Source of the DNA: Anaerolineae bacterium
Lineage (GTDB): Bacteria; Chloroflexota; Anaerolineae; DRVO01
Assembly: GCA_013178015.1 (NCBI GenBank)
Contig: JABLXR010000003.1
Span: 1 to 64,000 of the forward strand
Reading direction: 5' to 3'
Length of the DNA: 64,000 nucleotides
Shown: piece after piece, positions 13,574 through 32,943 of the stretch
Numbering within the stretch: the stretch's first letter is position 1
Layout: every line of letters begins with the position of its first letter
The notes under the pieces: generated by a model
Seen by the model: only the letters and a program-made list of their open reading frames with translations
Told to the model about the DNA's origin: nothing
Database searches by the model: none
Translations under genes and position numbers: made by a program

Positions 13574-13601
13574 TTGACGTTGGCACGGATCCTGCAATAC
13601 T
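13574..13601 (+). promoter_or_regulatory. Overlapping sigma-54-like and sigma-70-like promoter before rpoN
   Basis: TGGCACG at 13581-13587, four bases, then CTGCA at 13592-13596. The GG at 13582-13583 and GC at 13594-13595 have exactly the spacing of -25/-24 and -13/-12 elements, with one mismatch to the TTGCA half. The same DNA also reads TTGACG at 13574-13579, 16 bases, then AATACT at 13596-13601, a fair sigma-70-type match. A sigma-54 start would be near 13607, about 62 bases before the rpoN ATG. Which one works cannot be told from sequence. Confidence 0.5.
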
Positions 13602-13668
13602 GTCTCGCGCGACCCGATTATGTCATTGCGTAGCGCGAGTGCAGCGTGCAGTAAGTCCGGAGGCGTCA

Positions 13669-15143: not shown

Positions 15144-17498
15144 ATGGCGAGGGGCTTACTCGCTTCTGGCACTGTCCTGCTCGTGCTGGCGCTGCTGGGC
15201 TTAGGCTACCTGGCCCAGGGCAATAGCGTCATGGTCGCCCCCGTCGGCGACCCCAACTGGGGGCACAATCCGCTCACCGTCGCTGTCGGGCTACAGGCTG
15301 TGCCTCTATTCTACCAGGCTGAGGGTAAGCCCGCTGGTCTCCTGGACGACCTCTTCCGTCAGGCGCCTCTGGGAGAGCGTTCCTGGCTCCCCACAGCAGT
15401 CTCGGAGAGAGATGCCGTGGCCGCCGTAAACGCTGGTGCCGCTGATCTCGCCCTCCTCGCCATCACGCGCGGCAGCCCGGCTTCCGGCCTGGGCACTTCG
15501 GGCCCCTTGCTCAGCCACCCGGCTTCGCTGCTTGCCCCGGCACCCCCGCTGCCTCCCCAGGCCCTTCAGGGCCAGAGGGTAGCCTGGTCCGGCCCTGAGG
15601 GGCTAACCCACGCCCTGCTCCGGCTAGGGGCAGAGCCCGTTGGCACCACGTCAGTGGCCGATTGCCTGACCCGGGCTCTGGACGGTGGTGTCGTGGCCTG
15701 TGCCGTCGACGAGCTTGTGGGCGCAGCGAGCGTCCGTCAGCTCGGCCTAGGAAGCCAGTTAGCTATCGTCGGCGATCCGATCGCCACCATAGACTACGTG
15801 CTGGCTTGGCGCCCGGGCGATCGGGCAGCCCCCGGCATCGTAAGCCGCTGGATAGGCCAGGTCACCGCCAACGGCCTGCTCGAGAGCCTGCGTCGGCGCT
15901 GGTTGGGCATGTCACCCGCGGGTGTGGAGCGCGCCGGCCCGAGCGACACCGTCGTGGGGTTGGTAGTGGCCCTGGCGGCCACGGGCGGAACCTCCCTCAT
16001 TCTCGGTGCTTCCAATCTGGCCCTACGGCGGAGGGTCCGAGAGGAGCGAGGACCGGGCAGCCAGGCCCAAGGAATACATGCTGCCCTCATCGAGCAGTCC
16101 GAGGACGCCATGTTCGTGCTCGACGCGGGGCAGCTGGGAATCCTGGATGCCAACCCTCGGGCATACGCCCTCACCGGGTACGGGCCCGGCGAGCTCGTGG
16201 GCATGCGGTTTCAGCAGTTGGTCCCGTCGCGACACCGGCGCCTGCTGCGCCAAGCGTTCCTGGAGGACGAGGCTGGCGGCGCGCTGCCTGACGTGCCCCT
16301 GGTCCACCGCGACGGGACTGTGGCCACCGTCAGCATTCGCAGCCGAATGGTAGAAACCGATGCCGGACCGGTTCGCCTCTGTGTAGTCCGAGATGTGACG
16401 GAGCAGAGACTCATGCAGCGGGAGATCAGGCGGCTCTCGGAGTTCGCCGAGCGCGTCCTCGACAGCATACCGGATGCGGTGGTGACCGTGAATGCCGCCG
16501 GATACGTGACTTCCGCCAACCGCGCTTTCATCGCTAGCTTGGGCCTGCAGGAGGCGCCGGAGGGGCGGCACATTGATCGGGTCGTACCCTGCCATGGTTT
16601 CCGCCTCAGCCAGCTAGTGAACGCCGTAGCCGAGGGCGAGAGCCGCGAACCCGAACCTGTCACCGTCGGGCGCGAGGACGGGCGCGATCTGGCGTACTCC
16701 GTTACTGCCGCGCCGATGGAGGAGGACGGCCAAGTGTCGGGCGTGGTCCTGGTGCTGAGCCAGCCAGCGGAGCAGAGTGGCTCCAGCGCCGAATACCAGC
16801 GTCTGGCCATGCTCAGTACCCTGGGCCAGGTGTCAGGCGTGCTGGCCCATGACATACGCAACCGCGTCACCGGCGTGCACGTCGGGGTTCAGTATCTGGC
16901 CGAGAAGTTCCCCCAGGACGACCCGCGCCGGCGCTCCATGGAGTTCATCCGAGCCGAGACAGAGCGCGTCATGGAGGTCGTAGACGACATACTGATGCTC
17001 ATCCGACCCGGCAAGGTCGAGAGGCACTCCTGCCGCGTGAGTGACATCCTGGACCGGGTCATCCGCGCCCATGCCCCTCTCAGCCAGGCCAGTAAGGTCC
17101 AAGTTACCGCCAGCATGCCGGCCTCGCTCCCCCAGATCAACGGAGATCCGGTGCAGCTGGAGAGAGCGCTGGGGAATCTGGTGAAGAACGGCATAGAGGC
17201 TGCGCCCGAGGGAGGACGAGTGCGCATATCGGTCCAGGCTGCACTGTCGCAGTCCAACGGCCAGCCCACTTCCCAGGTGCGTATAAGCATTAGCGACAAT
17301 GGCCCCGGCATCCCGCCCAACATCCGAGCCAAGCTGTTCCAGCCGTTCGTGAGTGAGAAGCTGGAGGGCACCGGGCTAGGCCTATCCGTGGCCAAGAGGA
17401 TCATTGACGAGCACGGCGGTTGCATAGAGGTGGACACCAGCCCGAACCAGGGCACAACCTTCACCGTAGTCTTGCCCGCCGTCACAGAGCGAGGATAG
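15144..17498 (+). CDS. Sensor histidine kinase (NtrB-like) with solute-binding-like ectodomain and two PAS domains
   Basis: 784 residues. N-terminal membrane helix, then about 220 residues outside the membrane that look like a family 3 solute-binding domain (NPLTVAVGLQAVPLFY, AAVNAGAADLALLAITR), a second helix near residues 273-292 (TVVGLVVALAATGGTSL), PAS about 311-425, PAS about 435-540, H-box with His569 in LAHDIRN, and an HATPase domain (NLVKNGIEAAPEGG, DNGPGIPP, EGTGLGLSVAKRI). It probably phosphorylates the next gene's receiver in response to a small external ligand; the ligand is not known. Starts eight bases after rpoN. Confidence 0.88.
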   Translation: MARGLLASGTVLLVLALLGLGYLAQGNSVMVAPVGDPNWGHNPLTVAVGLQAVPLFYQAEGKPAGLLDDLFRQAPLGERSWLPTAVSERDAVAAVNAGAADLALLAITRGSPASGLGTSGPLLSHPASLLAPAPPLPPQALQGQRVAWSGPEGLTHALLRLGAEPVGTTSVADCLTRALDGGVVACAVDELVGAASVRQLGLGSQLAIVGDPIATIDYVLAWRPGDRAAPGIVSRWIGQVTANGLLESLRRRWLGMSPAGVERAGPSDTVVGLVVALAATGGTSLILGASNLALRRRVREERGPGSQAQGIHAALIEQSEDAMFVLDAGQLGILDANPRAYALTGYGPGELVGMRFQQLVPSRHRRLLRQAFLEDEAGGALPDVPLVHRDGTVATVSIRSRMVETDAGPVRLCVVRDVTEQRLMQREIRRLSEFAERVLDSIPDAVVTVNAAGYVTSANRAFIASLGLQEAPEGRHIDRVVPCHGFRLSQLVNAVAEGESREPEPVTVGREDGRDLAYSVTAAPMEEDGQVSGVVLVLSQPAEQSGSSAEYQRLAMLSTLGQVSGVLAHDIRNRVTGVHVGVQYLAEKFPQDDPRRRSMEFIRAETERVMEVVDDILMLIRPGKVERHSCRVSDILDRVIRAHAPLSQASKVQVTASMPASLPQINGDPVQLERALGNLVKNGIEAAPEGGRVRISVQAALSQSNGQPTSQVRISISDNGPGIPPNIRAKLFQPFVSEKLEGTGLGLSVAKRIIDEHGGCIEVDTSPNQGTTFTVVLPAVTERG

Positions 17499-17500
17499 TC

Positions 17501-18859
17501 ATGCCTGGTAGCATACTGATAGTGGAGGACGAGCCAGCCACCCGCTTCTTCCTGTCTCAGGCTCTCCTGGACGAGGGTCACGACGTGCATGAAGCCGGGA
17601 CCGCCGGCGAAGCCCTTGACCGCCTGAACCAGCTGCCAGTGGATCTGGTGATTCTGGACCTGCGCCTCCCGGATCGCTCCGGCATGGAGCTGCTCCCGGA
17701 GATCATGGCTCACGACCCCGACCTGCCGGTGATATTCCTCACCGCCCACGGTAGCGTGCAGGAAGCGGTTCAGGCGATGAAGCTGCGCGCCTGCGACTTC
17801 ATCTCCAAGCCCCCGGATCTGCCCACCTTGAAGCGCACCATTGCCCACCTGCTCCGCAACACCCAGTTGCAGAGAGAGGTGGAGCGATTGCGATCCAGTC
17901 CCTCCGACTCCGCCCATCCCTTCGTCACGGGCAAGACCCGGCCCATGATCCGCATTCTGGACATGGTCGAGCGGGTAGCCCCTACGTCGACCAGCGTTCT
18001 CATCTGTGGCGAGAACGGGACCGGAAAGGAGCGCATAGCCAACCTTATCCACGCACGAAGCCCACGGGCCGGTAAGCCCTTCGTGCCCATCAACTGCGCC
18101 GCCATCCCGGAGAATCTCTTGGAGAGCGAGCTTTTCGGTAGCGTCAGGGGCGCGTTCACCAATGCCACCGCGCGCAAGGGCCTCATCGAACAGGCCCACG
18201 GGGGCACCTTGTTCCTCGATGAGATCAGCGCCATGAAGCCCGACATGCAAGTCAAGCTTCTGCGAGTTCTCGAGGACAGGACGGTCCGGCGCCTGGGCGC
18301 GACAAGCGACATCAACGTCGATGTCCGCATCATCGCTGCCTCCAATCGGGACCTCAAGGCTATGATCGAACAGCGGACCTTTCGAGAGGATCTGTACTAT
18401 CGGCTGGCCGTGTTCACCATCGTCCTGCCGCCCCTCCGCGAGCGCGTGGAAGACATCCCCGATATCGCCGCCGCCTACATTGACTACTTCAACCGACAGA
18501 CAGGCCGCTTCGTGCAGGGGCTCACGCCGGAGGCGCTCGCCTGCCTGGAGGCGCACTCCTGGCCTGGCAACATCCGCGAGCTTCGCAACGTGATAGAGCG
18601 AGCCGTGATCCTGGCTGAGGGCGATGAGATAGGCCTGGAGCATCTACCGCCGGAGGTAACCAGGCTCAGCCTCGCTGCAACTAGGAGAGACCGCAGCAGC
18701 TCAGGCAAGAGCGAGCCTCTAGCTGGCTCGCTGTGGGACGTGGAGCGGCGGCTCATTGCGGAAGCCATGGAGCGCTGTGGCGGCGATCGCGCCGCAGCGG
18801 CCCGGGCCCTGGGCATCACCGAAGACGAGCTCTGTCGCCGGATGACCACCCAGTACTGA
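17501..18859 (+). CDS. NtrC-family sigma-54-dependent response regulator
   Basis: 452 residues. Receiver with phospho-acceptor Asp53 (VILDLRLPD), then an AAA+ domain with Walker A GENGTGKE near residue 170, the sigma-54 contact loop, Walker B GGTLFLDEI, and a FIS-like helix-turn-helix at the end (GGDRAAAARALGITEDELCRRM). The contact loop reads GAFTNA (residues 217-222) where GAFTGA is usual, so the glycine at position 5 is asparagine. Such proteins remodel sigma-54 polymerase from an upstream site. ATG 17501 follows GAGGA; it lies two bases after the kinase gene, so they are surely a pair. Confidence 0.93.
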   Translation: MPGSILIVEDEPATRFFLSQALLDEGHDVHEAGTAGEALDRLNQLPVDLVILDLRLPDRSGMELLPEIMAHDPDLPVIFLTAHGSVQEAVQAMKLRACDFISKPPDLPTLKRTIAHLLRNTQLQREVERLRSSPSDSAHPFVTGKTRPMIRILDMVERVAPTSTSVLICGENGTGKERIANLIHARSPRAGKPFVPINCAAIPENLLESELFGSVRGAFTNATARKGLIEQAHGGTLFLDEISAMKPDMQVKLLRVLEDRTVRRLGATSDINVDVRIIAASNRDLKAMIEQRTFREDLYYRLAVFTIVLPPLRERVEDIPDIAAAYIDYFNRQTGRFVQGLTPEALACLEAHSWPGNIRELRNVIERAVILAEGDEIGLEHLPPEVTRLSLAATRRDRSSSGKSEPLAGSLWDVERRLIAEAMERCGGDRAAAARALGITEDELCRRMTTQY

Positions 18860-18942
18860 CCTCTGCCTGGCATACGAATTGCAGTAGCCCTCGGGTGACG
18901 CCGCCTGGCACCCACATCATCGCCCGAGGGTTGGCTGCACTC

Positions 18943-19338
18943 ATGGCCCCACAGCGCATTCTCCTGGTTGACGACCAGCCCAGTATCCTGCACTTCCTAC
19001 GTTGCGGCCTGGAGGAGCACTGGCCCGCTTGCCTTGTCGACGTGGCCGGCAGCGCCGAGCAAGCGCAGCCACTCCTCGCTAGCCAGACCTACGATGCCAT
19101 CGTTACCGACTATCACCTCGGCGATGGGGACGGCGTGCAGTTGGCCCGCCTGGCCAAACAGTACTTGCCCCGGGTCTCCATCGTCTTGGTCAGCGCATCC
19201 AGACACACCCTCGCAGCGGCCGAGGCCGACGCCCGCCGGGCCGGAGTTGGCCTCCTGCTAGCCAAGCCCTTCGACCTCAGCCAGCTCGTGCGTGCGCTGG
19301 AATGCCCCGCCTCGGTCACCCAATGCCATTCGCGATAG
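18943..19338 (+). CDS. Stand-alone response regulator receiver domain
   Basis: 131 residues containing only a CheY-like receiver: RILLVDDQPSILHFLR, phospho-acceptor Asp56 in IVTDYHLGDGDG, conserved Ser in VLVSAS and Lys in LLAKPFD. There is no output domain, so it may relay phosphate or act by binding a partner. ATG 18943 is chosen; in-frame TTG 18931 touches the GAGGG site. Its place directly after the NtrC-type gene suggests it belongs to the same signalling path, perhaps as a phosphate sink or branch. Confidence 0.82.
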   Translation: MAPQRILLVDDQPSILHFLRCGLEEHWPACLVDVAGSAEQAQPLLASQTYDAIVTDYHLGDGDGVQLARLAKQYLPRVSIVLVSASRHTLAAAEADARRAGVGLLLAKPFDLSQLVRALECPASVTQCHSR

Positions 19339-19655
19339 ACGCTACCACGCTCCAGTTCGCCATGGGCGTAACCCTCTTCCTCCTGGGTGTAATCTGCCTC
19401 ATCGCTGGTCTCCGGCTAATCACCACCAGGGAGTACAGAGAGGGCATGAAGGAGTTGGTGGCCCAGTCAGCCAGGGTTGGGCGACGAGGCGTCACTGAGC
19501 ACAGTGTGGCGCCTGTGATAGACGCCACCTCGCGCCTGATAGAGTCGGTGGCCTCACTGGTGCGCACCGCCTTCGGAATGGGCGCCTTCCTCTGCCTGCT
19601 CGGGCTGGCCCTCTGCTGCTTCGGCGTCTGGATTACCGGACTAACGTCAATCTGA
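19323..19655 (+). CDS. Small two-helix membrane protein, function unknown
   Basis: 110 residues from ATG 19323 (ATG 19302 in frame would add seven). Helix 1 is about residues 8-32 (FAMGVTLFLLGVICLIAGL); helix 2 is near the C-terminus (FGMGAFLCLLGLALCCFGVWI). Between them is a soluble stretch with basic and polar residues (TTREYREGMKELVAQSARVG). It overlaps the receiver gene by 16 bases and precedes the TPR gene by 11 bases, so it may be co-translated with either. I do not recognise the family. Confidence 0.6.
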   Translation: MPFAIDATTLQFAMGVTLFLLGVICLIAGLRLITTREYREGMKELVAQSARVGRRGVTEHSVAPVIDATSRLIESVASLVRTAFGMGAFLCLLGLALCCFGVWITGLTSI

Positions 19656-19666
19656 CGGGAGGATTC

Positions 19667-22600
19667 ATGGCCGACGTAAGTGCGGTCCCCGGGGCCCTGC
19701 CCCTCAACCTGAGGGACCCGCGAACCAAGGCAACTACCATCGTCGCCAGCGATGCCGACCTGTTGGCACTGTGGGACGAGACGTCTCCTCTGCTCCTATG
19801 CGGAGCCACGGGAGAGGCACCTTCCATCCCCCATTGGCTCTCGCGCACTCCAGAGCTGCGGTGCCTGCGGCTCCTCAGCGCGCCCGATGGCGAGACTGAG
19901 CCTGCGGATGGGGCGCGGCGCCTGGTCGTCTTCGCCCCTTCCGACCTCATGAGGGAGCTGACCCGTCTGTGGCCAGACAGCCGGCAGTTGGTGGTCGAAC
20001 CCGCGGAGGACGCTCAGCTGGTTCAGGCCATGGCCTCGGCCCTTCCCCAGGCACTGGCCGAGGATCTGACCAACGCCGCCATGCGCGACCCCAAGCTGTG
20101 GAGTGCCCTCCGCCAGGAGCAGTTCCTGGGTGCTGCGGTGCGCGTGACACGCCAGGAGGGCAGCCCCGATTGGCTGTGCCGGGGTGCCCTGGTGGTCGAG
20201 GCGGCTGCGGTAGGCGGAGTGGCCGAGAGTCACCTCACCTGGCTGGGCCGACAACTGGAGAGTGGTGGCCCCTTGAAGTGCTGGCACACCGAGGCACCCA
20301 CCCTACACGCCATAGCCTCCGGCCGCTCCGATGCCTTCGCCCTCCATGAGCTGTGGCACGACTATGCCCTGGCGCTGGCCTGCGCCGGTCGCGGTCTCCA
20401 GCCCCGGGCTGCGGTGCCCCACCTCCTGGCCTCCGGCCGACCGGACGTGCTGGCGATGCTGTACTCCCTGGCCGATTCGCACCTCGACTGGATGCAGGCC
20501 CTCATGGCCGAGGGCCCTCAAGGAGCGGCTGTCCTGGCCCGGTGCATTGCGTGGCAGAACGACCCAGGAGCTCGGCATGGCTGTGTGGCCGCGGCCGTGG
20601 CCGGCGTGCGGCATGCCCCTACCTTGGCTACCTTCGTAGCTCATCTGGAGCCATTGGTGGATGCGGAGGTCCTCGAGCCTGCGCTGCAGGCCCTGTGCAG
20701 CCTGCCGCAACGCGACATCCCGGAGGCCCTGCACATCCTGGCTGGCACGGCTGCAGTCGCCAGACTGTTCGAGCGCCCCGGGGCTGGCCTGTCTCAGGCG
20801 CTGAGCGCCACCGACGCCGGTGGCGCCGAGGCCGGCATTCAGGCCGCTCTGAGCAACGCCGAGACCATCCGGGCCAACCTGCTCTTCCGGCTGGGCCAGA
20901 CCGCCGAGGCGCAGCGATCTTGGGACGAGGCGGCCGAGCGCTACCGAGCCGCCCTCGAGGCTGGCCCCTCAGTGGCCCTCTACGCCGCCGCGGCGGCACG
21001 AGCGCTGAACCGCGGTGGGCGCCACGACGAAGCCATAGAGGTCCTGGACGGAGTGGCGCCGGAGACTGGTCGGACACCGCGGCTCATGGTGGAGCGGGCA
21101 TACGCGTACCTCGGCCTCGGGTGGCTGGACGAGGCGGTTGACGTGGCCACCGGGGTGGTACGAGCAGCTCCGGACCTGCCCAAGGCCCACGCCGCGGCCG
21201 GTGCCGCCCTGCTGGCCGCCGGCAGGGCGGCGGAAGCGGAGACTGCCTTGCGCCGAGCAGTGGAGCTGTCTCCCAGCGACGCCGATGCACACCTGGAGCT
21301 CGGTCACTGCCGAGGCACCCTGAGAGATGGGGCGCTGGCGCGGCTAAGCCTGGAGCGGGCACTGTCTCTGGATCCCGATCACCCCGAGGCGCGCAAGGCC
21401 CTCGCCTCCTTACTGCTACGTCAGGGCGATTACAGCGCCGCCCTCCAGCATCTCGAGCGGCTGGCGGACCTTGAGCCCTCCGACGCCCTGGTGCGGCTGC
21501 AATATGCTGAGGCCCTGGACCGGGCGGGCCAGGCCGACCGGGCTCAGGCAGAATGGCAGGGCATTATGGCTCAGGTTAGCCGTGATTGGAGTGGCCTGGT
21601 GGCTGCCGGATCAGCCCTCCGGCGGGCCGGCCGCTACGACGAGGCCGTGAAGACGCTCAAGCGTGCTATCGCCGCTAACCCCGCTAGCGTGGAGGCCAGC
21701 ATCGAGCTCGCCCGGACACTGGAAAGCGCCGGGGACTCTGAGCAGGCCCTGGAGGAGTTCCGCTCCGCTTGTCAGCGGTTCCCTCACGATGCCCGATCGC
21801 ACTACCACTTGGGTCGGGCCTGTGCCCGGATGGGTTACGCTGATGAGGCTGTCGCCGCCCTTGGCGCTGCCATCGAACGGGATGCATCGCTGGCGGAGGC
21901 GCACTTCGAGCTGGGGCAGATCCTTGAGTCGCGAGGTGAACTCGAACCTGCCCTGGAAGCCTACCGCTCCGCTGCTCTCTGCTCCGGGGGCAACCCCACC
22001 TACGATGCCTGCGCTGGGCGACTGTGCCTCGCCCTGGGGCGCTATGAGGAGGCGGTGCAGCATCTGCGCACCGCTTCCTCCCGCGCTGCAGTCGAGCCCG
22101 AAGTGCACGCAAACCTGGGAGAGGCCCTGCGCCATCGCGGTGCGCTGGAACAGGCCATGGCCGCTTACCGCAACGCCGTGGATGCCGCCCCCTCTAGTCC
22201 CCATTACCATGCCCGTTTGGCGGAGTGCGCGGCCGCGCTAGGACGCACCAATCAGGCCGTACGCGAGGCGGAAGAGGCGGTGAGGCTGGCACCACACGAC
22301 CCGGAGTTCCTGGCGCTCAAGGCCAGGCTGCTCATGGACCTCCAGAGGCCTCTCAGCGCCGCGGAGGTGCTGCGCAAGGCAGTGGCACTACCCGGAGGGG
22401 ACCAGTACCGTGCCAACCTTGGTGCCGCCTACCGACGCGCCGGCAACCTCCAGGCGGCAGAAGAGGAGCTGGCTGCAGCCATCGGCCTCCGACCCAATGA
22501 CCCCGAGATCCACGAGGAACTTGCGGCCCTCTTCGCCGCTCGAGGCGATCTCGAGGGGGCAGTCCGCGAGATTCGGCATGGGCTCAGCCTCGAGCCCGAA

Positions 22601-25600
22601 AGCCTTGACACCCGCGTGCGCCTGGCGCGGGCCTTAGCCCAATACGGCCACGAGGAAGAAGCGTGCGAACAGCTGACCAGAGCGGCGTCGCTGGCCCCGG
22701 AGAAGGGACCCGTGCACCTGGCTCTGGGCGAGGTGCTGGAGAAGCTGGGCCGGCTCTCCGAGGCCCGGGCTTCGCTGGAGCGGGCCACCAGCCTCGACGA
22801 GCGCTCCGCCGCATCACTGCTGTCGCTCGGCCGTGTGTGCCGTCGCCTCGGCGACTGGCGCGCGGCCCTGGAGGCGCTTCAGGCGGCCATGGCTCAGGCT
22901 CCTGAAGACGCTCAGATACACCTTGAGCTCGGCCGGGCCTGGCTAGAGGCACAGCGACCGCAAGAGGCCCAGAAACACTTCCAGGATGCCATCCGCCTCT
23001 CGGGGCCTTCGGCGGCCAGCCTGGATGCGCTCGGTCGCGCCCAGCTGGCCAGCGGGGAGGTGGACGCCGCCATTGCCACCTTCGAGAAGGGGATCGGATT
23101 GGCTCCGGAAGCCGACGGACTCAGGGAGGGTCTGGCCCGGGCCTTCGCTGCCAAAGGCTGGATCCAGGAAGCGGTCGATCAACTCGCAGCTGCAGCAGAA
23201 AGGCACCCGCGTTCTGTCCGGCTGCGGCTGGCACTGGCGGAGCTACTGCAACGTCGCGGCATGCACACTCCGGCGATCGCCGCTCTGCGCCAGGCCATCC
23301 ACTTGGCGCCAGAGGATCCCGACGTGCTCCTGCCTCTGGGGCAGGCTCTGGCTGATTCGGGCGAGCACGCGGAAGCCCTCCCGCTGTTCGAGCGTGTCCT
23401 CCGGCTTGTGCCCGACTCGCGGGAAGCGCGGATGGCGTTAGCAGACGCCAACCTGAACTTGGGGCGCCGGCCCGAGGCCCGACAGCTCCTCTCCGAACTC
23501 ATGGAGCGCGATCCGGACAGCGCCGAGGCCCACTACCAGATGTCCCGACTTCACGCACAGGAAGAGGAACTCCAAGCAGCTCTGGACGAGGCCACCAAAG
23601 CCGTGTCTCTGGAACCGGACAACGCCCGCATACGCGCCCACCGCGCTCGGCTATTGGCGCGATACGGAGCTACCTCGCAAGCGCTGCAGGAGGCCCAGAG
23701 GGCAGTTGACTGCGCCCCCGATGAACCGGTCGCCGTAACCACACTTGCTGCGCTGCTCTCCGATGCCGGCCGCTACCAAGACGCTCTGAGCTGGTACAAC
23801 CGCGCCGTCGAACTGACCCCAGGCAACGCCGAGCCCTTCAGGGAGCTTGGGCGCCTGGCCCTGCTCTTGGGCGATGCCTCCCGGGCATCCGCCGCCCTCG
23901 AGCACGCAGCCAGCTTGGATCCCACCGATCGCGGCGTTCTCTCCCTGGCAGCCGAGGCCCTCGAGGCCGCCGGCGACCTAGCCCGCGCGACCGACTACGC
24001 CCAGCGGGCCCTCAACCTGGATCCTGAGTGCGTGGAGTGTCGCGTGCGGTTGGCACGCTTGCTTCGTCGCTCCCGCCGGCTGGCCGAGGCCGCCGACGTG
24101 CTCTCCAGCGCCGAGGCAGGGCAACACCGCGACCTCATCCTAGAACAAGCCAGAGTGCTGGCCGCTCGCGGGGACCAGGAGGCCGCACTGCGGCTGTATC
24201 AGCAAACGCTGGACCGGTCCGCCGACCACCTGGAGACCTTGCTGGAGATGGCGGAGTGCGCCATCTCTTGGCACGACGAGGCCGAGGCGAGAGCTGAGTG
24301 CGACCTGCCGGTTCGGGCGCCCGAGCGGCGCTTCCTGGATTCCCTGCATCAATTGCTCACCAAGTTCCGACCCAGTCCGGCTCTGGAGAGTCGGTACCAG
24401 TCTGCGGTGGCGGGCTTACTTACTCTCCTCAATCAGGAGAGAGAGGCACTGGAGCTATGCCGGAGCGCACTCCTCCATGCTCCCGAGGACGCGTCCCTCC
24501 ACCGGCGGCTCGCTCGCTTGCTCCTGCAAGCGGGCAAGCCGAAGGAGAGCCTGCGGGAGTTGGTCCTCGCCGACCGGGCCAATCCGGGCGATGCCGAGAC
24601 CGTGCTGGGCATTGGCCGCCTCCTCGTCCACCTGAACGAAAGTGAGCGCGCAGCGGCCGCTCTCCAGAGGGCTGCCGACTTGGCGGGCGGCGATCCCCTC
24701 ACCCTGGTGAGAGCAGCTCGCCTCCTGGAAGAGGCAGGAAGGCTGGCTGAAGCGGTCGAACTCATGCGCAGGGCGGTGCAGGCCGACGACCGCCATCCTG
24801 CCTGGTGGAACCATCTCGGTGACCTCCATCTCCGCCTCAAGCGCTATCAGTCAGCCCTTGAGGCCTATCAGAAGGCCGCTCGGTTGGACCCTGAGAACCC
24901 GCTGTACCTCCGCAACGCCGGTCTTGCCTATGGGGGCATGCGCCGCTACCAGTCCGCTGCCAGGGCACTAGAGCGTGCCACGGAGCTGGCCCGAGACAAC
25001 GCCACCTGGGTCGCCGAGCTCGCTTCTGCTTACGAGAGGGCCGGCGAGGCCGCGCGGGCAGTGCAAGCATATGAGAGAGCAACCCAGATCGAGCCCGACA
25101 ACCCTTGTCACCATGTTGGCCTGGGCAATGCGCTGTCCAGTCTAGGGCGCCTCAAGGACGCCGGCCGTCATCTGCTCCATGCCCTCGAGCTTCAGCCCGA
25201 CCTGCCGGCGGTCCATGCGGCGCTGGGGCGCCTTCGGTTCCACGAGGGGCACCGGCAAGAGGCTGTGCAGCATTTCCGACGCGCTATCGAAATCGAACCC
25301 ACCAGCCATCGGCACCACCAGGAGCTGGCCACCCTCTTGTACCTATCTGGTGACGCCAGCCAGGCCCTGGAGGAAGCCGAAGTGGCGGCCTCGCTGGACG
25401 GAACTGACCCGGAGACCTACGTCGTGATGGCCCAAGCCTATGCTGCACTGAACCGGCACGACGAGGCCATCCAGGCTCTGCAGCAGGCCCTGGTACTGGA
25501 CAGCAACAACGCCGACATCCACCACGCCATGGGAGAGCTATGTCGTCAGATCGGCTACTACGAGCGTGCCGCTGAGCACTTCCGTCAGGTCATCCACCTT

Positions 25601-25894
25601 AGACCCAAGGACGCCGAAGCTCGCAAGCAGCTGGGGCAGACCTACGAGTACTCCCAGGAGTACGACCGGGCTCTGGCGCAATACATCCGGGCCATAGAGC
25701 TCGACCCCGAGGAGCCCGAGTACTACTTCTGCGCCGGCCGCATGTACAAGAGGCGCAAGGAGTACGGCGAGGCCATAGAAATGTTCCGGCACGTACTCCG
25801 CCTGGAGCCCACCAACGCCGAGGCTTACAAGCAGCTGGCAGCGGTAAGCGCCCTGAATCTGGTGGCGGGGGAAGCGCGTGCGGTCGCACGGTGA
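19667..25894 (+). CDS. Giant TPR-repeat protein (2075 residues)
   Basis: Residues 1 to about 400 form an unrecognised domain with no signal peptide or membrane helix. From about residue 405 to the end it is an almost unbroken array of tetratricopeptide repeats, roughly 45 to 50 by length (estimate), with the usual W/L-G-A-Y-A-P pattern, such as LEAYQKAARLDPENPLYLRNAGLAY. One interruption lies near residues 1535-1600 (AECDLPVRAPERRFLDSLHQLL). TPR arrays bind partner proteins or peptides. ATG 19667 has GGGAGGA before it. The last 17 bases overlap a gene for a C25/caspase-like protease, so the two products probably work together, likely in the cytoplasm. No repeat unit appears frameshifted. Confidence 0.92.
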   Translation: MADVSAVPGALPLNLRDPRTKATTIVASDADLLALWDETSPLLLCGATGEAPSIPHWLSRTPELRCLRLLSAPDGETEPADGARRLVVFAPSDLMRELTRLWPDSRQLVVEPAEDAQLVQAMASALPQALAEDLTNAAMRDPKLWSALRQEQFLGAAVRVTRQEGSPDWLCRGALVVEAAAVGGVAESHLTWLGRQLESGGPLKCWHTEAPTLHAIASGRSDAFALHELWHDYALALACAGRGLQPRAAVPHLLASGRPDVLAMLYSLADSHLDWMQALMAEGPQGAAVLARCIAWQNDPGARHGCVAAAVAGVRHAPTLATFVAHLEPLVDAEVLEPALQALCSLPQRDIPEALHILAGTAAVARLFERPGAGLSQALSATDAGGAEAGIQAALSNAETIRANLLFRLGQTAEAQRSWDEAAERYRAALEAGPSVALYAAAAARALNRGGRHDEAIEVLDGVAPETGRTPRLMVERAYAYLGLGWLDEAVDVATGVVRAAPDLPKAHAAAGAALLAAGRAAEAETALRRAVELSPSDADAHLELGHCRGTLRDGALARLSLERALSLDPDHPEARKALASLLLRQGDYSAALQHLERLADLEPSDALVRLQYAEALDRAGQADRAQAEWQGIMAQVSRDWSGLVAAGSALRRAGRYDEAVKTLKRAIAANPASVEASIELARTLESAGDSEQALEEFRSACQRFPHDARSHYHLGRACARMGYADEAVAALGAAIERDASLAEAHFELGQILESRGELEPALEAYRSAALCSGGNPTYDACAGRLCLALGRYEEAVQHLRTASSRAAVEPEVHANLGEALRHRGALEQAMAAYRNAVDAAPSSPHYHARLAECAAALGRTNQAVREAEEAVRLAPHDPEFLALKARLLMDLQRPLSAAEVLRKAVALPGGDQYRANLGAAYRRAGNLQAAEEELAAAIGLRPNDPEIHEELAALFAARGDLEGAVREIRHGLSLEPESLDTRVRLARALAQYGHEEEACEQLTRAASLAPEKGPVHLALGEVLEKLGRLSEARASLERATSLDERSAASLLSLGRVCRRLGDWRAALEALQAAMAQAPEDAQIHLELGRAWLEAQRPQEAQKHFQDAIRLSGPSAASLDALGRAQLASGEVDAAIATFEKGIGLAPEADGLREGLARAFAAKGWIQEAVDQLAAAAERHPRSVRLRLALAELLQRRGMHTPAIAALRQAIHLAPEDPDVLLPLGQALADSGEHAEALPLFERVLRLVPDSREARMALADANLNLGRRPEARQLLSELMERDPDSAEAHYQMSRLHAQEEELQAALDEATKAVSLEPDNARIRAHRARLLARYGATSQALQEAQRAVDCAPDEPVAVTTLAALLSDAGRYQDALSWYNRAVELTPGNAEPFRELGRLALLLGDASRASAALEHAASLDPTDRGVLSLAAEALEAAGDLARATDYAQRALNLDPECVECRVRLARLLRRSRRLAEAADVLSSAEAGQHRDLILEQARVLAARGDQEAALRLYQQTLDRSADHLETLLEMAECAISWHDEAEARAECDLPVRAPERRFLDSLHQLLTKFRPSPALESRYQSAVAGLLTLLNQEREALELCRSALLHAPEDASLHRRLARLLLQAGKPKESLRELVLADRANPGDAETVLGIGRLLVHLNESERAAAALQRAADLAGGDPLTLVRAARLLEEAGRLAEAVELMRRAVQADDRHPAWWNHLGDLHLRLKRYQSALEAYQKAARLDPENPLYLRNAGLAYGGMRRYQSAARALERATELARDNATWVAELASAYERAGEAARAVQAYERATQIEPDNPCHHVGLGNALSSLGRLKDAGRHLLHALELQPDLPAVHAALGRLRFHEGHRQEAVQHFRRAIEIEPTSHRHHQELATLLYLSGDASQALEEAEVAASLDGTDPETYVVMAQAYAALNRHDEAIQALQQALVLDSNNADIHHAMGELCRQIGYYERAAEHFRQVIHLRPKDAEARKQLGQTYEYSQEYDRALAQYIRAIELDPEEPEYYFCAGRMYKRRKEYGEAIEMFRHVLRLEPTNAEAYKQLAAVSALNLVAGEARAVAR

Positions 25895-27359
25895 TGGCCG
25901 TAGCGCCGCGCCCGTGATTCTAGTGGCCTCACGCCTCCTGCTCTCTCGCCGATTCGGTGTCGCCGGGTGGCAGGCGGTAGATGAGGCTCTGGTGCAGCTG
26001 GCCCAGAGCCTTCGTCCCTTGTCGGCTCACCTCTTGTACGTTGACGACGCCCGCTCCCTCGCCCCTTACGGCCTTAGCCCCGTCACCCCGCGCGACCCGC
26101 AGCTCATTCGCCAGCTCGTCGACCAGCTGGAGCGAAACCTAGGGGGAGCTCCCGCCATCGTGTGGTTGATCGGCGGGGATGAGGTGCTACCTTTCTTTCG
26201 TCTGACCAATCCCGCCGACGATCCGGACGGCGAAATCCTGTCGGATGCCCCCTACGCCTCCTCGGGCGGCGACCCCCTGGTGCCCTCACGGGTGGTGGCA
26301 CGCCTGCCGCACCCGGCCGGTGGAGCGAATGCTTTCCTCCACCTCCTAGCCCGAGCGGCGAGCGCACAACCCATCCAGCCCCGACAGGGCACTCCGGTAG
26401 CAGTCGGCTACACTGCCAGCATCTGGAGGGAGGCCTCCCAAGCAGTGCTGTCCGAAATCCCGGGGGCCGGGCCTCTCAGGATGTCTCCCCCTTGGGAGCT
26501 GCATGACTACCCCTATGTGCGCCGACAACACGCTACCCTCCGCTACTTCAATCTACACGGGACAGCCGAGGGCACCACCTGGCACGGTCAGCTCGATCCG
26601 GTGCTGCCCGCCGACTTCGATGACTTCCCTCCTGCCCTCCGGCAGATAGACATCTCTGCTGACGAAGCTCGGGACTCGGTAGTGGCCGCCGAAGCCTGCT
26701 ACGGGGCCGCCCTGACCCCGACCAGCATCGCCATGCGCTTCCTCCGCCTGGGTGCCGGCGCCCTCTTGGGGTCCACCGCCATGTCCTACGGGGCGCTGGC
26801 CTCCCCCGTATCGGGAGCGGACCTGCTGGTCAAAGACTTCTTGCAGTTGGTCGTGGCCGGTGTTCCCTTGGGTGAGGCCCTTCTGTTGGCCAAGCTCGCT
26901 TTCGCCCGCACCATGATGGACACCCAGGGCTTCCTGGACGCCGAGGACCAGAAGACCCTCCTCACTTTCGTTCTGCTGGGCCATCCTACGCTCCGGCTGG
27001 CCGTCGGGTCCCCACAATCGCAGTCGCATCTGGCCTGCGCAGAAGCGTACCGTCACCTGGACGGGCCACTCGATGTGGTGTGCGCCCACACCGTCGATAG
27101 GTCAGGGGCGCCCATTCCTGAGGGCAGCCTGCTGAAGGAGATAGAGAGCCTGGCCCAATACCATCTCGCTGCCCACCCCCGTTCTCTGGGTTTTAGGCAG
27201 GAAACTTGCAGGATCATGGCCCCTAGCACCCACAGCCGACCCACGTCCGACTCGCACCAGGTGGTGAGTCTGAGCCGACCCCTGTCCAGTGGCGGGACGC
27301 AGGTGGTCCGGTTCACCGTGCGAGAGGGTCGGGTGACCAAGACCGTGGTATCTCACTAG
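25878..27359 (+). CDS. Clan CD cysteine protease, peptidase C25 (gingipain/caspase-like) type
   Basis: 493 residues. The C25-like core shows WLIGGDEVLPFF, LSDAPYASSGGDPLVPSRVVARLP, then the catalytic pair: His227 in YFNLHGTAEGT and Cys274 in AAEACYGAAL, and GAGALLGSTAMSYG after it. C25, caspase and CHAT proteases share this His-Gly / Glu-Ala-Cys-Tyr-Gly layout. Gingipains are secreted, but here no signal peptide is visible. The last about 120 residues are not recognised. GTG 25878 overlaps the TPR gene by 17 bases (GTG 25914 is the alternative start). The pairing suggests the TPR protein senses or delivers substrate for this protease. Confidence 0.8.
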   Translation: MRSHGDGRSAAPVILVASRLLLSRRFGVAGWQAVDEALVQLAQSLRPLSAHLLYVDDARSLAPYGLSPVTPRDPQLIRQLVDQLERNLGGAPAIVWLIGGDEVLPFFRLTNPADDPDGEILSDAPYASSGGDPLVPSRVVARLPHPAGGANAFLHLLARAASAQPIQPRQGTPVAVGYTASIWREASQAVLSEIPGAGPLRMSPPWELHDYPYVRRQHATLRYFNLHGTAEGTTWHGQLDPVLPADFDDFPPALRQIDISADEARDSVVAAEACYGAALTPTSIAMRFLRLGAGALLGSTAMSYGALASPVSGADLLVKDFLQLVVAGVPLGEALLLAKLAFARTMMDTQGFLDAEDQKTLLTFVLLGHPTLRLAVGSPQSQSHLACAEAYRHLDGPLDVVCAHTVDRSGAPIPEGSLLKEIESLAQYHLAAHPRSLGFRQETCRIMAPSTHSRPTSDSHQVVSLSRPLSSGGTQVVRFTVREGRVTKTVVSH

Positions 27360-27401: not shown

Positions 27402-27848
27402 ATGCAACTCACGGAGCTGCTCGACGAGCTGGAAAACGTCATCTCCGACGCTTACTACATCCCCCTAACCAGCAAGGCTGTCGTGGATCAGAGCCTGTGC
27501 CTCGACCTCATCGACAGGATTCGCTCGGCGCTGCCCGCGGAGCTAGCCGAAGCCCAGCGCATCAAGAACGCGCGAGAGAGGATCCTGGCCCAGGCCGAGG
27601 CGGAGGCGGAGGACTTGAGAAAGCTGGGGCGCCAGCAGCTCGAGCAGGCGGCCGCCGAGAGCGAGGCTGTCGCTCTGGCGCGCGTCCAGGCGGAGGAGAT
27701 AGTGCAGGACGGTGAGCGACGGGCGCGAGAGATGGCGGCGGCCGCCATCGAGTATTCAATGTCGATCTACCAGCGCCTGGAAGAGGACTTGAGCGCTCTG
27801 CTGGAGGATCTTCGCTTCCGCATCCCGGAGCAACTGCAGGCCGACTGA
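27402..27848 (+). CDS. Coiled-coil protein, V-ATPase subunit H / F0-b-like
   Basis: 148 residues. Starts MQLTELLDELENVI, then the block IPLTSKAVVDQSLCLDLIDRIRSALPAEL, followed by a long Ala/Glu/Arg-rich coiled coil (about residues 45-135). This two-part pattern is a conserved bacterial family often annotated as 'ATPase' and found beside coaD or cell-division genes; the true function is not settled. No membrane helix. It lies 20 bases before ftsZ, so a link to cell division or shape is possible but only inferred. Confidence 0.7.
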   Translation: MQLTELLDELENVISDAYYIPLTSKAVVDQSLCLDLIDRIRSALPAELAEAQRIKNARERILAQAEAEAEDLRKLGRQQLEQAAAESEAVALARVQAEEIVQDGERRAREMAAAAIEYSMSIYQRLEEDLSALLEDLRFRIPEQLQAD

Positions 27849-27868: not shown

Positions 27869-29080
27869 GTGGAGGCTTCCAACGTGACTCAGGCGACACA
27901 AACAAAGCCACTGCGCATCACAGTCGTGGGCGTGGGCGGCGCTGGCTGTAACGCGGTGGACCGCATGATCAGCGTCGACATTCCCGATGTTGACTACCTG
28001 GTGCTCAACACCGACGCCCAAGCCCTGGCCAGGTCCGACGCCGGCCGCAAGATCTGCCTGGGTGGCCCACGCACCCGTGGCCTAGGCGCGGGAGGGGATC
28101 CTGCCAGCGGCGCAGCGGCGGCCAAGCTGTCCGCCGATGAGATCGCCCGAGCGCTGGATGGCTCAGCCCTGGTATTCCTAGCCGCCGGCATGGGGGGCGG
28201 CACCGGGAGTGGCGCCGCCCCCATCGTGGGCGACGTGGCCCGCTCCCTGGGAGCGCTGACCGTGGCCGTGGTGACCAAGCCTTTCTCCTTCGAGGGCTTC
28301 CGGCGCCGCAAGGTGGCAGAAGAGGCGGTTGCCGAGCTGGAAAAGCACGTGGACACCCTCATCGTGGTCCCCAACGACAAGCTCCTGGCCTTCACCTCCG
28401 AGAAAGTGACGCTGGATATCGCCTTCCGCATTGCCGACGATGTCTTGCGGCAGGGCATCCAAGGCATCTCCGAGGTCATCACTCGGCCCGGGCTCATCAA
28501 CGTGGACTTCGCCGACGTCAGGCGCATCATGGCCCAGGGTGGCACCAGCCTCATGTCCATCGCCCAGGCCAAGGGGCCCGAGCGAGCCCTGGAGGCGGCC
28601 CAGTCGGCAGTCTCCAACCCCCTCATCGCCACCGACTCCATCGGAGGAGCCAGGGGAATCTTGGTGAACGTGGTTGGCGGACCGGACATGACCCTGCACG
28701 AGGCCGGCCAGGCGGTGGAGTACATCACCGAGCAGGCCAGCGAGGATGCTGAGGTCATCTTCGGCGCCGCCATAGACAACAGCATGGGCGACAAGCTTCA
28801 GATAACGCTCATCGCCACCGGAGTGGGAGCCGCTGCTCAACCTCAGCGCCGGCCCGCTGCCACGCCGATGCCGGCCCGTCAGGCATGGGCCGATCGGCCT
28901 CAGCCCCAGCGGAGCGGAATCCCAGTCCCGAGGGAGTTCGAAGAGAAGCTAGCCCGGGTGCGCGACAACGGCCACGACGAGCCCCACCGCACCGAGCGTC
29001 ACCTGGAGCCGGCACTCGCCGCTCAGGGTCTCAACCTTGAGATCCCCACTTTTCTGCGCCGTGCTCGCGGCCTGCTCTAG
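27869..29080 (+). CDS. ftsZ: Cell division protein FtsZ
   Basis: 403 residues. Tubulin-like GTPase that forms the division ring. VVGVGGAGCNAVDRMI, the G-box GGGTGSGAAP near residue 110, TVAVVTKPFSFEG, VPNDKLL and NVDFADVRRIM are all present. The glycine loop that is often GAGGNPEIG reads GAGGDPASG. A variable linker ends in LNLEIPTFLRRARG, a good match to the C-terminal peptide that binds FtsA, ZipA or SepF-type partners. GTG 27869 is set by CCGGAGGAG seven bases before it. ftsA and ftsQ are not neighbours; Chloroflexota often have a second ftsZ. Confidence 0.95.
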   Translation: MEASNVTQATQTKPLRITVVGVGGAGCNAVDRMISVDIPDVDYLVLNTDAQALARSDAGRKICLGGPRTRGLGAGGDPASGAAAAKLSADEIARALDGSALVFLAAGMGGGTGSGAAPIVGDVARSLGALTVAVVTKPFSFEGFRRRKVAEEAVAELEKHVDTLIVVPNDKLLAFTSEKVTLDIAFRIADDVLRQGIQGISEVITRPGLINVDFADVRRIMAQGGTSLMSIAQAKGPERALEAAQSAVSNPLIATDSIGGARGILVNVVGGPDMTLHEAGQAVEYITEQASEDAEVIFGAAIDNSMGDKLQITLIATGVGAAAQPQRRPAATPMPARQAWADRPQPQRSGIPVPREFEEKLARVRDNGHDEPHRTERHLEPALAAQGLNLEIPTFLRRARGLL

Positions 29081-29100: not shown

Positions 29101-29325
29101 ATGGCTGACTGCGAACTAGAGAAGGCCGCCAAAGCCTACCTAGCCCGTCACTTTCCCACCCTGCAGGCGGTCTCCACTGCTCACACCGAACGACAGGCCA
29201 AGACCCCTGGAGCGTCGCGGCAACACGTGTTCGACTTCACCGGCACCATAGGTGACACCATCCAGAGAGTGAGGATCGTGCTCGATGACCGGGGAAAGGT
29301 GGTCAAAGCGGCCATCTCTCGCTAG
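29101..29325 (+). CDS. Small conserved-looking hypothetical protein
   Basis: 74 residues, soluble, no cysteine motif beyond one Cys. Sequence runs MADCELEKAAKAYLARHFP and then FDFTGTIGDTIQRVRIVLDDRGKVVKAAISR, which looks like a small alpha/beta unit ending in two strands. ATG 29101 is chosen because GGAGG at 29089-29093 is seven bases before it; ATG 29095 is too close to that site. Not recognised. Lies between ftsZ and the LysM glycosidase, and the latter's likely start overlaps its end. Confidence 0.55.
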   Translation: MADCELEKAAKAYLARHFPTLQAVSTAHTERQAKTPGASRQHVFDFTGTIGDTIQRVRIVLDDRGKVVKAAISR

Positions 29326-31081
29326 ACGAGGGTGGCACCACAGAGGCCCACGCGCGGCCAGAACCCGCACCGAGACCCGCCTGCGCCTCATTCTCATCGG
29401 AGCCGCGTTCATGGCCAGCCTAGTGCTGGCGCTGATTCCATCATCGGCGGCTGCCCAGCAACCCCAGGAACGCGTCCATGTCGTCTCCTGGGGAGAGACG
29501 TTGAGCAGCATAGCACTCCTCTATGACGTTCCCATCGAGGAACTTCTAAGAGTGAACGGGCTGGCCAACGCCCACCTCATACAGGCTGGCCAGGTGCTCG
29601 TGATCCCGCAGACCCCTGCTTCCGACGACAGCCAGCCCTCACCGGCGCCGCCTGGGGGCGAACGCACTCACGTCGTGACCTACGGGGAATCGCTCTTTGG
29701 CATCGCCCTCCTCTACGGGGTGGACCTGTACCAGCTCGCTGCCGCCAACGGCATCGCCAACGCCGACCTAATACAGCCAGGGCAGATCTTGACCATCCCC
29801 GACGGCCACGGCCCCCTAGCCCCGGGCACCGACTCCCCCGGTCAAGAGGGGCTGCGCGAGCACGTGGTGCGCCCGGGAGAGACGCTCCTCTGGATCGCCC
29901 TGCAGTACGGCCTGTCGGTGGATCGCCTGAGCGCAGCCAACGGCATCTCCAATCCCTCGCTCATCTACCCGGGCCAGCGCCTGATCTTGCCCAATCCCGA
30001 CGGCAATGGAGATCCGATGGCCACGCCGGTGTCACCAGAGCCTGCAACCGGGCCCACGCCCCGGGAGGCCCACGCCACCCCGGGCGTCTGCGTTCACCTT
30101 ATCCATCAGGACATCCCGGCCGTACTCAACGCGGTGGAAGGCCTAGGCTTCGGCTGGATCAAGCAGCAGGTGGAATGGAAACTGGCGGAACCACAGAAGG
30201 GCTCCATCCGCTGGGACCACCTCGATCCGATAGTGGAGGCGGCGTCCGCCCGAGGGCTGAACGTGCTACTGAGCGTGGTCAAGGCGCCGGCATGGGCCCG
30301 GCCGGCCGACAGCGATCTCAACGTTGACGGCCCTCCCGCCAATCCGGGTGATTACGGTGACTTCGTGGCCGCCCTCGCCTCTCGCTATCGGGGCAGAGTA
30401 GCTGCCTACGAGATCTGGAACGAGCAGAACCTGTGGTACGAGTGGGGCGGTAAGGGCCGGTTGTCTGCCGGCCAGTATGTCGAACTGCTCCGCGTCGCCT
30501 ATGAGCGCATCAAGCAGGCCGACCCCGCGGCCCTGGTGGTGAGCGGCGGCCTGACCCCTACTGGGGTGAACGACGGCTATCTCGCCTTCGATGACGTACA
30601 TTACCTCGGCCAGATGTATGCCGCCGGCGCCGCACCCTATTTCGACGTCCTGGGCGCCCATCCCAGCGGCTACAACAACCCCCCGGACGACTCCCCATCG
30701 CTCAACAGCACCGACACTACTGAGTTCAAGGGGCATTGGAGCTTCTACTACCGCCGGTTCGAGCAGCTTCGAGACGTAATGGCACTCAATGGGGACAGCC
30801 ACAAACAGATGTGGTTCACCGAGTTCGGCTGGTCCTCGCAGAAGCACCCGCCCGAGGGTTACGAGTACGCCGCGGACAACTCCGAGGAGCAGCAAGCGCG
30901 GTATCTTCTTCGCGCCTTCCAACTCGCCCGAGAGAGGGACTACGTTGGAGTCATGTTCATCTGGAACTTGAACTTCGCCACCGTGGCGGGCCCGGACGAC
31001 GAGAAGGCGGGCTTCAGTCTCATCCGTTCTGACGGCTACCCACGCCCGGCGTACCTCGCCCTCGCCAGCATGCCCCGGTAG
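29285..31081 (+). CDS. Secreted glycoside hydrolase with three LysM domains
   Basis: 598 residues from ATG 29285. A basic N-terminus and a hydrophobic stretch (LILIGAAFMASLVLALIPSSAAAQ) form a signal peptide or anchor. Three LysM domains follow (about residues 62-107, 128-173, 193-238; each with GETL/GESL and an N-G-I/L-A/S-N core), then a TIM-barrel of the clan A type. Acid/base Glu380 lies in EIWNEQNLWY and nucleophile Glu513 in WFTEFGWSS, as in GH39/GH5-like enzymes. LysM binds N-acetylglucosamine polymers, so it likely acts on the cell wall or a wall-linked glycan. ATG 29411 would cut off most of the signal peptide. Confidence 0.85.
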   Translation: MTGERWSKRPSLARRGWHHRGPRAARTRTETRLRLILIGAAFMASLVLALIPSSAAAQQPQERVHVVSWGETLSSIALLYDVPIEELLRVNGLANAHLIQAGQVLVIPQTPASDDSQPSPAPPGGERTHVVTYGESLFGIALLYGVDLYQLAAANGIANADLIQPGQILTIPDGHGPLAPGTDSPGQEGLREHVVRPGETLLWIALQYGLSVDRLSAANGISNPSLIYPGQRLILPNPDGNGDPMATPVSPEPATGPTPREAHATPGVCVHLIHQDIPAVLNAVEGLGFGWIKQQVEWKLAEPQKGSIRWDHLDPIVEAASARGLNVLLSVVKAPAWARPADSDLNVDGPPANPGDYGDFVAALASRYRGRVAAYEIWNEQNLWYEWGGKGRLSAGQYVELLRVAYERIKQADPAALVVSGGLTPTGVNDGYLAFDDVHYLGQMYAAGAAPYFDVLGAHPSGYNNPPDDSPSLNSTDTTEFKGHWSFYYRRFEQLRDVMALNGDSHKQMWFTEFGWSSQKHPPEGYEYAADNSEEQQARYLLRAFQLARERDYVGVMFIWNLNFATVAGPDDEKAGFSLIRSDGYPRPAYLALASMPR

Positions 31082-32457: not shown

Positions 32458-32943
32458 ATGGCCCAGTCTGCGAAACCGGCACCGGGAGCGATCCGTCGCC
32501 TCCTCCTCGTCATCGTAGCCAGCGCCGTCACCATAGCCGGGCTGGCCCTGCTCGCCGGAGGTGGCTACATGCTCATCGCCGCACCCGCGGACACCACTCC
32601 AGCACCCTCCCTGGTGCAGGTGTCGGCACAGGAGGCCGAATCTCTGGCGGATGCCACGGCCACGGCGGAGCCCATCGCAGCCACAATCAGCCTTACCCCG
32701 AGCGGGGGCGACGAGGGAGCCGCTACGGTTACCGCGGTTCCGACGCCGACCGCCACCCCTGTCCAGATGGCGCAGGCGGTCTCTCCCACGCCAACGAGGG
32801 TACTGCGGGCCACCGACACCCCGACCCCCATACCGACGAGCGAGCTACCCGACACCGGTTTCGGTGGTTTCCTCCAGCCGCTGGCGGGTTTTGCACTGGT
32901 GGGAGTGGCAGTCACGGCGCGGGCGCTGCGCCATCGGCGCTGA
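32458..32943 (+). CDS. LPDTG-bearing surface protein, probable sortase substrate
   Basis: 161 residues. An N-terminal hydrophobic helix (LLLVIVASAVTIAGLALLAGGG) acts as signal or anchor, followed by an Ala/Thr/Pro-rich exposed stretch (VPTPTATPV, DTPTPIPTS). The end is a full sorting signal: LPDTG at residues 130-134, a hydrophobic helix (FLQPLAGFALVGVAVTA) and the basic tail RALRHRR. It has almost no folded domain, so it may be a short wall stalk or spacer. ATG 32458 follows GGAGGA. The sortase at 12501 is the natural candidate enzyme. Confidence 0.85.
   Translation: MAQSAKPAPGAIRRLLLVIVASAVTIAGLALLAGGGYMLIAAPADTTPAPSLVQVSAQEAESLADATATAEPIAATISLTPSGGDEGAATVTAVPTPTATPVQMAQAVSPTPTRVLRATDTPTPIPTSELPDTGFGGFLQPLAGFALVGVAVTARALRHRR

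Follow-up and report, generated by a model that had tools for sequence, protein, structure and literature searches.

What is encoded where a gene for a giant tetratricopeptide repeat (TPR) protein runs directly into a gene for a cysteine protease? This arrangement occupies positions 19667-27359 of a 64,000-nucleotide stretch of Anaerolineae DNA (contig JABLXR010000003.1 of assembly GCA_013178015.1, positions 1-64,000; hereafter the window, on whose scale all coordinates are given). A preliminary description read the pair as a split, cytoplasmic TPR/C25 unit with kinship to the TPR-CHAT proteases of type III-E CRISPR, possibly controlled by sigma-54 genes just upstream. Both open reading frames (ORFs) lie where it placed them, at 19667..25894 (2075 aa) and 25878..27359 (493 aa); these and all module features given below are on the plus strand. 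The protease ORF starts at GTG and overlaps the TPR ORF by 17 nt. Our analysis shows that the unit is a vertically kept Chloroflexota module, the core of which comprises a small membrane protein (TMS), a NACHT-derived TPR alpha-solenoid, and a cytoplasmic C25-fold protease. In Anaerolineae, this core is joined to a paralogous FtsZ (FtsZ2) and often also to a glycoside-hydrolase (GH)-like protein, a coiled-coil protein, MraZ, and a 72-113-aa copy of the tail of the protease. The preliminary description mentioned neither the NACHT domain nor the small membrane protein nor FtsZ2, and the co-directional run of genes is wider than the pair itself, starting at rpoN (13639) and including FtsZ2 (to 29080).

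A scan of genome contigs yielded 80 loci, all recorded under Chloroflexota names and mostly from Anaerolineae, including the cultured Anaerolinea thermolimosa, Bellilinea caldifistulae, Thermanaerothrix daxensis, and Leptolinea. The pair indeed stays together across the phylum: among the 72 assessable loci, defined as those with at least 2.5 kb present upstream of the protease, a TPR gene is located immediately 5′ of the protease gene in 70 (69 by script, plus L171, in which the two ORFs overlap by 195 nt), and the only true exceptions, L056 and L066, are closely related to each other. The median gap between the two genes is -4 nt, suggesting that they are translationally coupled. Directly before the TPR gene, a homologue of the small membrane protein (in the window 19323..19655, about 110 aa with two hydrophobic segments by sequence, overlapping the stop codon of a receiver gene) is present in 63 of 64 loci, while the GH-like protein, coiled coil, MraZ, FtsZ2, and tail protein follow the protease in varying combinations. 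Each genome contains one strong match, and gene order is fixed.

The family assignment of the protease relies on its relatives' profiles and on its fold, both of which gave C25, because the window sequence alone is silent: single-sequence searches returned no match in Pfam, NCBIfam, or PDB sequences, and a 10-row protease profile returned none against PDB sequences. Among 10 family members, seven matched Peptidase_C25 (PF01364, best E-value 1.3e-17) and none matched CHAT in Pfam. When an AlphaFold2 model built from 56 sequences (predicted local distance difference test score, pLDDT, 89.4; predicted template modelling score, pTM, 0.91) was compared with the PDB by Foldseek, gingipain K (Kgp, 1.4e-11) and RgpB (4.9e-11) took the top ranks, followed by Csx29 in third place with SAVED-CHAT and TPR-CHAT proteins (about 1e-6 to 1e-5), and then by yeast and human separase (about 1e-4; 1.1e-4). 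As the model is closest to the gingipains, the window protease is, as modelled, a C25-fold enzyme, in agreement with the gingipain-like core first noticed. The His227/Cys274 pair singled out in the preliminary description, located within NLHG and EACYG, respectively, is retained in 94 of 95 aligned proteases, and the lone exception (L022) has lost both residues (R/G), a joint loss expected for a real dyad. Conservation of the His is partly conditioned by a search peptide that contains NLHG, whereas the Cys is in no search peptide. In the genome of this exception (G027, loci L022/L073), which has neither FtsZ2 nor rpoN, the dyad-less protease paralogue lies beside a TPR protein that exceeds 3,100 aa, apparently a pseudo-enzyme version of the pair.

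By eye, the protease has no hydrophobic N-terminus and no visible signal peptide, and most of its relatives are extended at the N-terminus by TPRs (744-996 aa in many); on these grounds we infer that it is cytoplasmic, and the earlier picture of a split cytoplasmic unit encoded by separate genes can be kept. The domain formed by its last ~75 residues is, in relatives, also encoded separately after FtsZ2, as a 72-113-aa protein (tail protein versus protease C-terminal domain: hhalign probability 98.4, E 4e-15). Both the tail domain and the tail protein end in Ser-Arg or Ser-Lys in most copies; the window protease ends in VSH, and a separate tail gene is absent from its locus. Stand-alone relatives of the protease are encoded on Rhizobium plasmids (L259 and L260; ~515 aa, ~30% identical, scoring 153-176 bits against the family profile), with no giant TPR gene adjoining and each followed by an unrelated 80-81-aa gene; this neighbour was compared with the tail protein and proved not to be it. 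A viral fold library gave no match at E <= 0.001, and phages gave none.

The giant protein was first described as consisting mostly of TPR units. Its TPR content is overwhelming (TPR_2 in Pfam, 4.7e-141), but that description was incomplete, as residues 1 to ~390 appear to constitute a degenerate NACHT/NLR-like region. Long relatives begin with a NACHT NTPase (Pfam 7.6e-14 and 1.9e-11), in which Walker A, Walker B, and the helical region that follows can be aligned; the window copy does not match the NACHT profile with its Walker motifs, and its Walker A is degenerate. The Walker A pattern was detected in 26 of 79 giant proteins (2 of these 26 lie well downstream and are probably spurious), including nearly all of those longer than ~2,120 aa, and is missing from the lineage of the window and from most of the 1,650-2,000-aa group. 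For a model of the window N-terminus (pLDDT 83), the first 40 PDB matches in Foldseek were all NLRs, with a modest E-value of 1.5e-3 and an alignment that included NACHT relatives. Judged by profiles and modelled fold, the giant protein is probably an NLR-derived TPR solenoid, the NTPase of which appears to have decayed in the window copy.

FtsZ2 (27869..29080) is a second FtsZ that falls outside the canonical clade. The window protein (TIGR00065, 3e-118) retains its GTPase motifs, including GGGTGSG, and the C-terminal peptide EIPTFLRR; the idea that it might be the only FtsZ of its genome was dropped when a canonical FtsZ was found on another contig. Within the class, at least two FtsZ matches are present in 35 of 38 module-positive versus 3 of 22 negative genomes (p ~1e-9), and two of these three negative genomes carry duplicates of the canonical type. 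A quick maximum-likelihood tree groups 39 stand-alone FtsZ proteins in one clade (Shimodaira-Hasegawa-like approximate likelihood ratio test, SH-aLRT, 99) with no module-linked FtsZ inside, and the internal relations of FtsZ2 are poorly resolved, with some long branches. FtsZ2 tracks the unit even when unlinked: in family f53, the FtsZ2 operon lies far from the protease, yet the GH-FtsZ2-tail triad is kept in 10 of 10 loci. Although most FtsZ2 proteins keep the GTP-binding motif and C-terminal peptide, the second catalytic Asp of the T7 loop has been lost in 42 of 57 (to His in 29) versus 0 of 39 canonical FtsZ proteins. An FtsZ without this Asp is predicted to hydrolyze GTP slowly or not at all. 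Three loci of family f37 (L024, L171, and L172) encode extremely divergent FtsZ2 proteins without a GGGTGTG motif in modules that are otherwise normal. Between protease and FtsZ2 lies a conserved 148-aa coiled-coil protein (27402..27848) without a confident Pfam family, which may resemble mycobacterial SepIVA/DivIVA-like proteins.

Control by the upstream sigma-54 genes, initially offered as a guess, is better supported than first supposed. The run begins with rpoN (13639..15135; Sigma54_CBD 9.4e-47, Sigma54_DBD 8.8e-38), the sole copy in the genome, which is preceded by a promoter-like -24/-12 site, TGGCACGGATCCTGC (13581..13595), pointing to possible autoregulation. It continues with a PAS-PAS histidine kinase (15144..17498, start approximate; HATPase_c 1.4e-29 and PAS domains), an NtrC-type sigma-54 activator (17501..18859; Sigma54_activat 1.5e-67), which is the only full-strength one in the window genome (the other three matches score 26-29 bits), a promoter-like site matching the strict consensus, TGGCATACGAATTGCA (18868..18883, 75 nt 5′ of the receiver gene), and a lone receiver-domain protein (18943..19338; Response_reg 9.2e-15). 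Within the class, rpoN occurs in 31 of 38 module-positive versus 0 of 22 negative genomes (p ~1e-10) and, when a subset of genomes is collapsed by family, in 8 of 10 positive versus 0 of 20 negative families (p ~8e-6). It is single copy and usually on the same contig, ~6-20 kb from the protease. The seven positive genomes without rpoN comprise three of group f50, which also lack sigma-54 sites, two incomplete assemblies (G043 and G156), and the FtsZ2-less G027 (with the dead protease) and G322. The strict pattern TGGCAYRNNNNTTGC was counted across 2.0 Mb of module loci, some of them present in overlapping copies: 80 occurrences fall on the coding strand and 3 on the opposite one, mostly just 5′ of the membrane-protein or receiver gene, a position conserved in relatives. 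A strict site also precedes the GH gene in 10 of 10 unlinked FtsZ2 operons, and in five genomes (G201, G262, G242, G356, and G288) one lies ~1 kb before the match to the RpoN DNA-binding domain, i.e., near the start of the gene. With a -24/-12 element at its predicted promoter and rpoN in the genome, the module appears to belong to a sigma-54 regulon.

Further candidate targets are found downstream of FtsZ2 and elsewhere. In the window, FtsZ2 is followed by a secreted protein with three LysM domains and a GH-like domain (29285..31081; LysM 1.3e-42) and by a LytR-CpsA-Psr protein (31094..32428; PF03816, 4.7e-39), both of which probably share the transcript. In the window genome, a sortase (L219; PF04203, 8.8e-26; site 67 nt upstream) and a LysM protein lie directly downstream of further sites; in other genomes, this position is taken by Amidase_3, M23, GH25, and deacetylase proteins. 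HDOD, GGDEF/EAL, and subtilase-like proteins are likewise found there. A conserved membrane protein of ~355 aa (GWGIWPVQW...LREDYLRM), with a site 112-115 nt upstream in four Anaerolineae genomes (L226, L232, L240, and L241), is a likely further member on these sequence features. At L234 (G270 contig 4), an FtsL-like gene with a penicillin-binding protein gene after it has a strict sigma-54-like site 11 nt upstream. A broad sigma-54 regulon was considered and set aside because genome-wide counts are low. Outside the module, the window also encodes a sortase-like protein upstream (12501-13292) and, downstream, a 161-aa protein (32458-32943) with an LPDTG sorting signal, a transmembrane segment, and a basic tail.

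Taken as a whole, the module is on balance probably a programme of septation or envelope remodelling that sigma-54 switches on and in which a cytoplasmic protease is held on a scaffold; both this role and the protease substrate are our inference. A kinase/NtrC/sigma-54 relay would switch on this specialised programme, and the small membrane partner would tether the TPR protein at the membrane, where the latter may act as a ligand-sensing scaffold that restrains and positions the protease. FtsZ2 would form a second filament, in many lineages probably a non-hydrolyzing one. The event, such as the separation of cells in filaments, could then be completed or terminated by wall hydrolases induced alongside and by limited proteolysis, either of FtsZ2 or of a protein associated with it. 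The tail domain, with its Ser-Arg/Lys end, may serve for docking or as a product-like inhibitor. Of the earlier proposal, the regulated split unit stands, and signalling, defence, or cell death is a lesser possibility, but the co-regulated FtsZ2 and cell-wall enzymes favour septation or envelope remodelling in the first place. Several observations weigh against this proposal. Chloroflexota of other classes have the TMS-TPR-protease core but neither FtsZ2 nor sigma-54 sites at its locus, indicating that core activity does not depend on FtsZ2. Group f50 keeps FtsZ2 without rpoN. In the window, the catalytic Asp of FtsZ2 is retained and the site ahead of rpoN carries one mismatch. Motif counts over whole genomes exceed those of negative genomes only modestly, which makes single extra targets uncertain, and the cell-wall theme among these targets, counted without a background set, is suggestive. 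This theme fits the published picture of sigma-54, which is noted in some Chloroflexi, as governing the bacterial exterior (Francke et al. 2011, PMC3162934).

A more specific and rather unlikely version of the septation proposal is a convergent bacterial separase logic, in which a clan CD protease restrained by a giant alpha-solenoid would cut FtsZ2 or its anchor and so trigger an irreversible step in an alternative division under sigma-54 command, with the Arg/Lys-ending tail proteins acting as a securin-type or product-like inhibitor; the repeated loss of the FtsZ2 GTPase Asp would fit, as the disassembly of such filaments would depend on proteolysis instead of hydrolysis. The TPR/C25 unit may instead have nothing to do with FtsZ2, serving, for example, envelope-stress proteolysis or protein quality control, with FtsZ2 as another sigma-54-regulated gene that joined the locus in Anaerolineae. 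This explanation, a minority possibility to be taken seriously, gains from the FtsZ2-less core in other classes, from the distance between the two operons in family f53, and from the varied envelope proteins in the sigma-54 regulon, but it does not readily account for the persistence of the FtsZ2, GH, and tail partners with the protease even when unlinked, or for the homology between the tail protein downstream of FtsZ2 and the protease C-terminal domain, a molecular link between the two halves.

The remaining readings concern immunity. If the NACHT/TPR protein sensed an invader and released the protease to kill the cell, with FtsZ2 as target or effector, the module would be an NLR-caspase-like system of defence or regulated cell death, and a NACHT-TPR protein beside a clan CD protease does resemble that logic; moreover, filamentous, multicellular bacteria are enriched in conflict systems, including ones with caspase-like and rare FtsZ domains (PMC7159879). 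We nevertheless consider this quite unlikely, given that PADLOC found only generic TPR matches, no phage match was obtained, each genome has a single strong match in a fixed gene order, the NACHT Walker A has been lost in most lineages, and the target and co-regulated genes are envelope genes. The kinship with type III-E CRISPR, in the form of a split, Csx29-like TPR-CHAT protease working with a CRISPR effector, did not survive and is now very improbable: the clan CD fold is the same and Csx29 is the third-ranked fold match, yet gingipains match about five orders of magnitude better, Pfam gives C25, PADLOC assigned no CRISPR-associated model to the protease, and no CRISPR genes were noticed in the gene lists of the inspected loci.

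If the septation or envelope-remodelling reading is correct, controlled clan CD proteolysis would enter these processes in bacteria, NLR-type receptors would be used outside immunity, and an explanation would be offered for the retention of sigma-54 in some Anaerolineae; its presence in cultured strains makes the module directly testable. No earlier description of it was found among open-licence papers, preprints excluded, although such absence is not proof. The domains belong to known families, and what was not found elsewhere is their combination, in which a giant TPR protein of NLR descent and a gingipain-fold protease of the cytoplasm are joined by another FtsZ and by a sigma-54 switch that is nearly private.

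Several known systems come close in part. Csx29/TPR-CHAT (Craspase, type III-E CRISPR) likewise unites TPRs with a clan CD protease in bacteria, but there the protease is a fused, CRISPR-linked CHAT domain, whereas here it is of the C25 type and encoded by a separate gene, no Cas7-11-like gene was recognised in the gene lists of the loci, and PADLOC returned no defence model for the protease and only generic TPR-type matches on the repeats. NLR/STAND NACHT proteins acting with caspases are similar in pairing a clan CD protease with a repeat protein that starts with a NACHT domain; the present module differs in its frequent loss of Walker A, its C25 partner, and its linkage to FtsZ2 and sigma-54. 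Extra ftsZ genes outside the division and cell wall (dcw) cluster, to which FtsZ2 is comparable in location, are known in bacteria, with Bipolaricaulota named (PMC9871819), and the excerpt of that source describes no Anaerolineae FtsZ2, T7-loop losses, or protease partner. The placing of envelope genes under sigma-54 recalls the exterior regulons of PMC3162934, although the window genome has one rpoN and one full-strength activator, and the best-supported targets are the protease/TPR/FtsZ2 module. With separase (C50), the module shares a huge alpha-solenoid, a caspase/gingipain-like protease, and a division-related context, with a weaker fold match; separase is a single chain that cuts cohesin, while the present system is bacterial, C25-fold, and divided between two genes, with no cohesin or securin recognised, although cohesin homologues were not looked for; the analogy is architectural only. 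The closest likeness of the protease is to the gingipains RgpB and Kgp of peptidase family C25, in fold, His/Cys dyad, and the Pfam matches of its relatives. Unlike those secreted virulence proteases, it lacks a visible signal peptide, is paired with a giant TPR partner, and bears a conserved C-terminal tail domain, and secretion is a feature of the known gingipains rather than of the C25 fold family.

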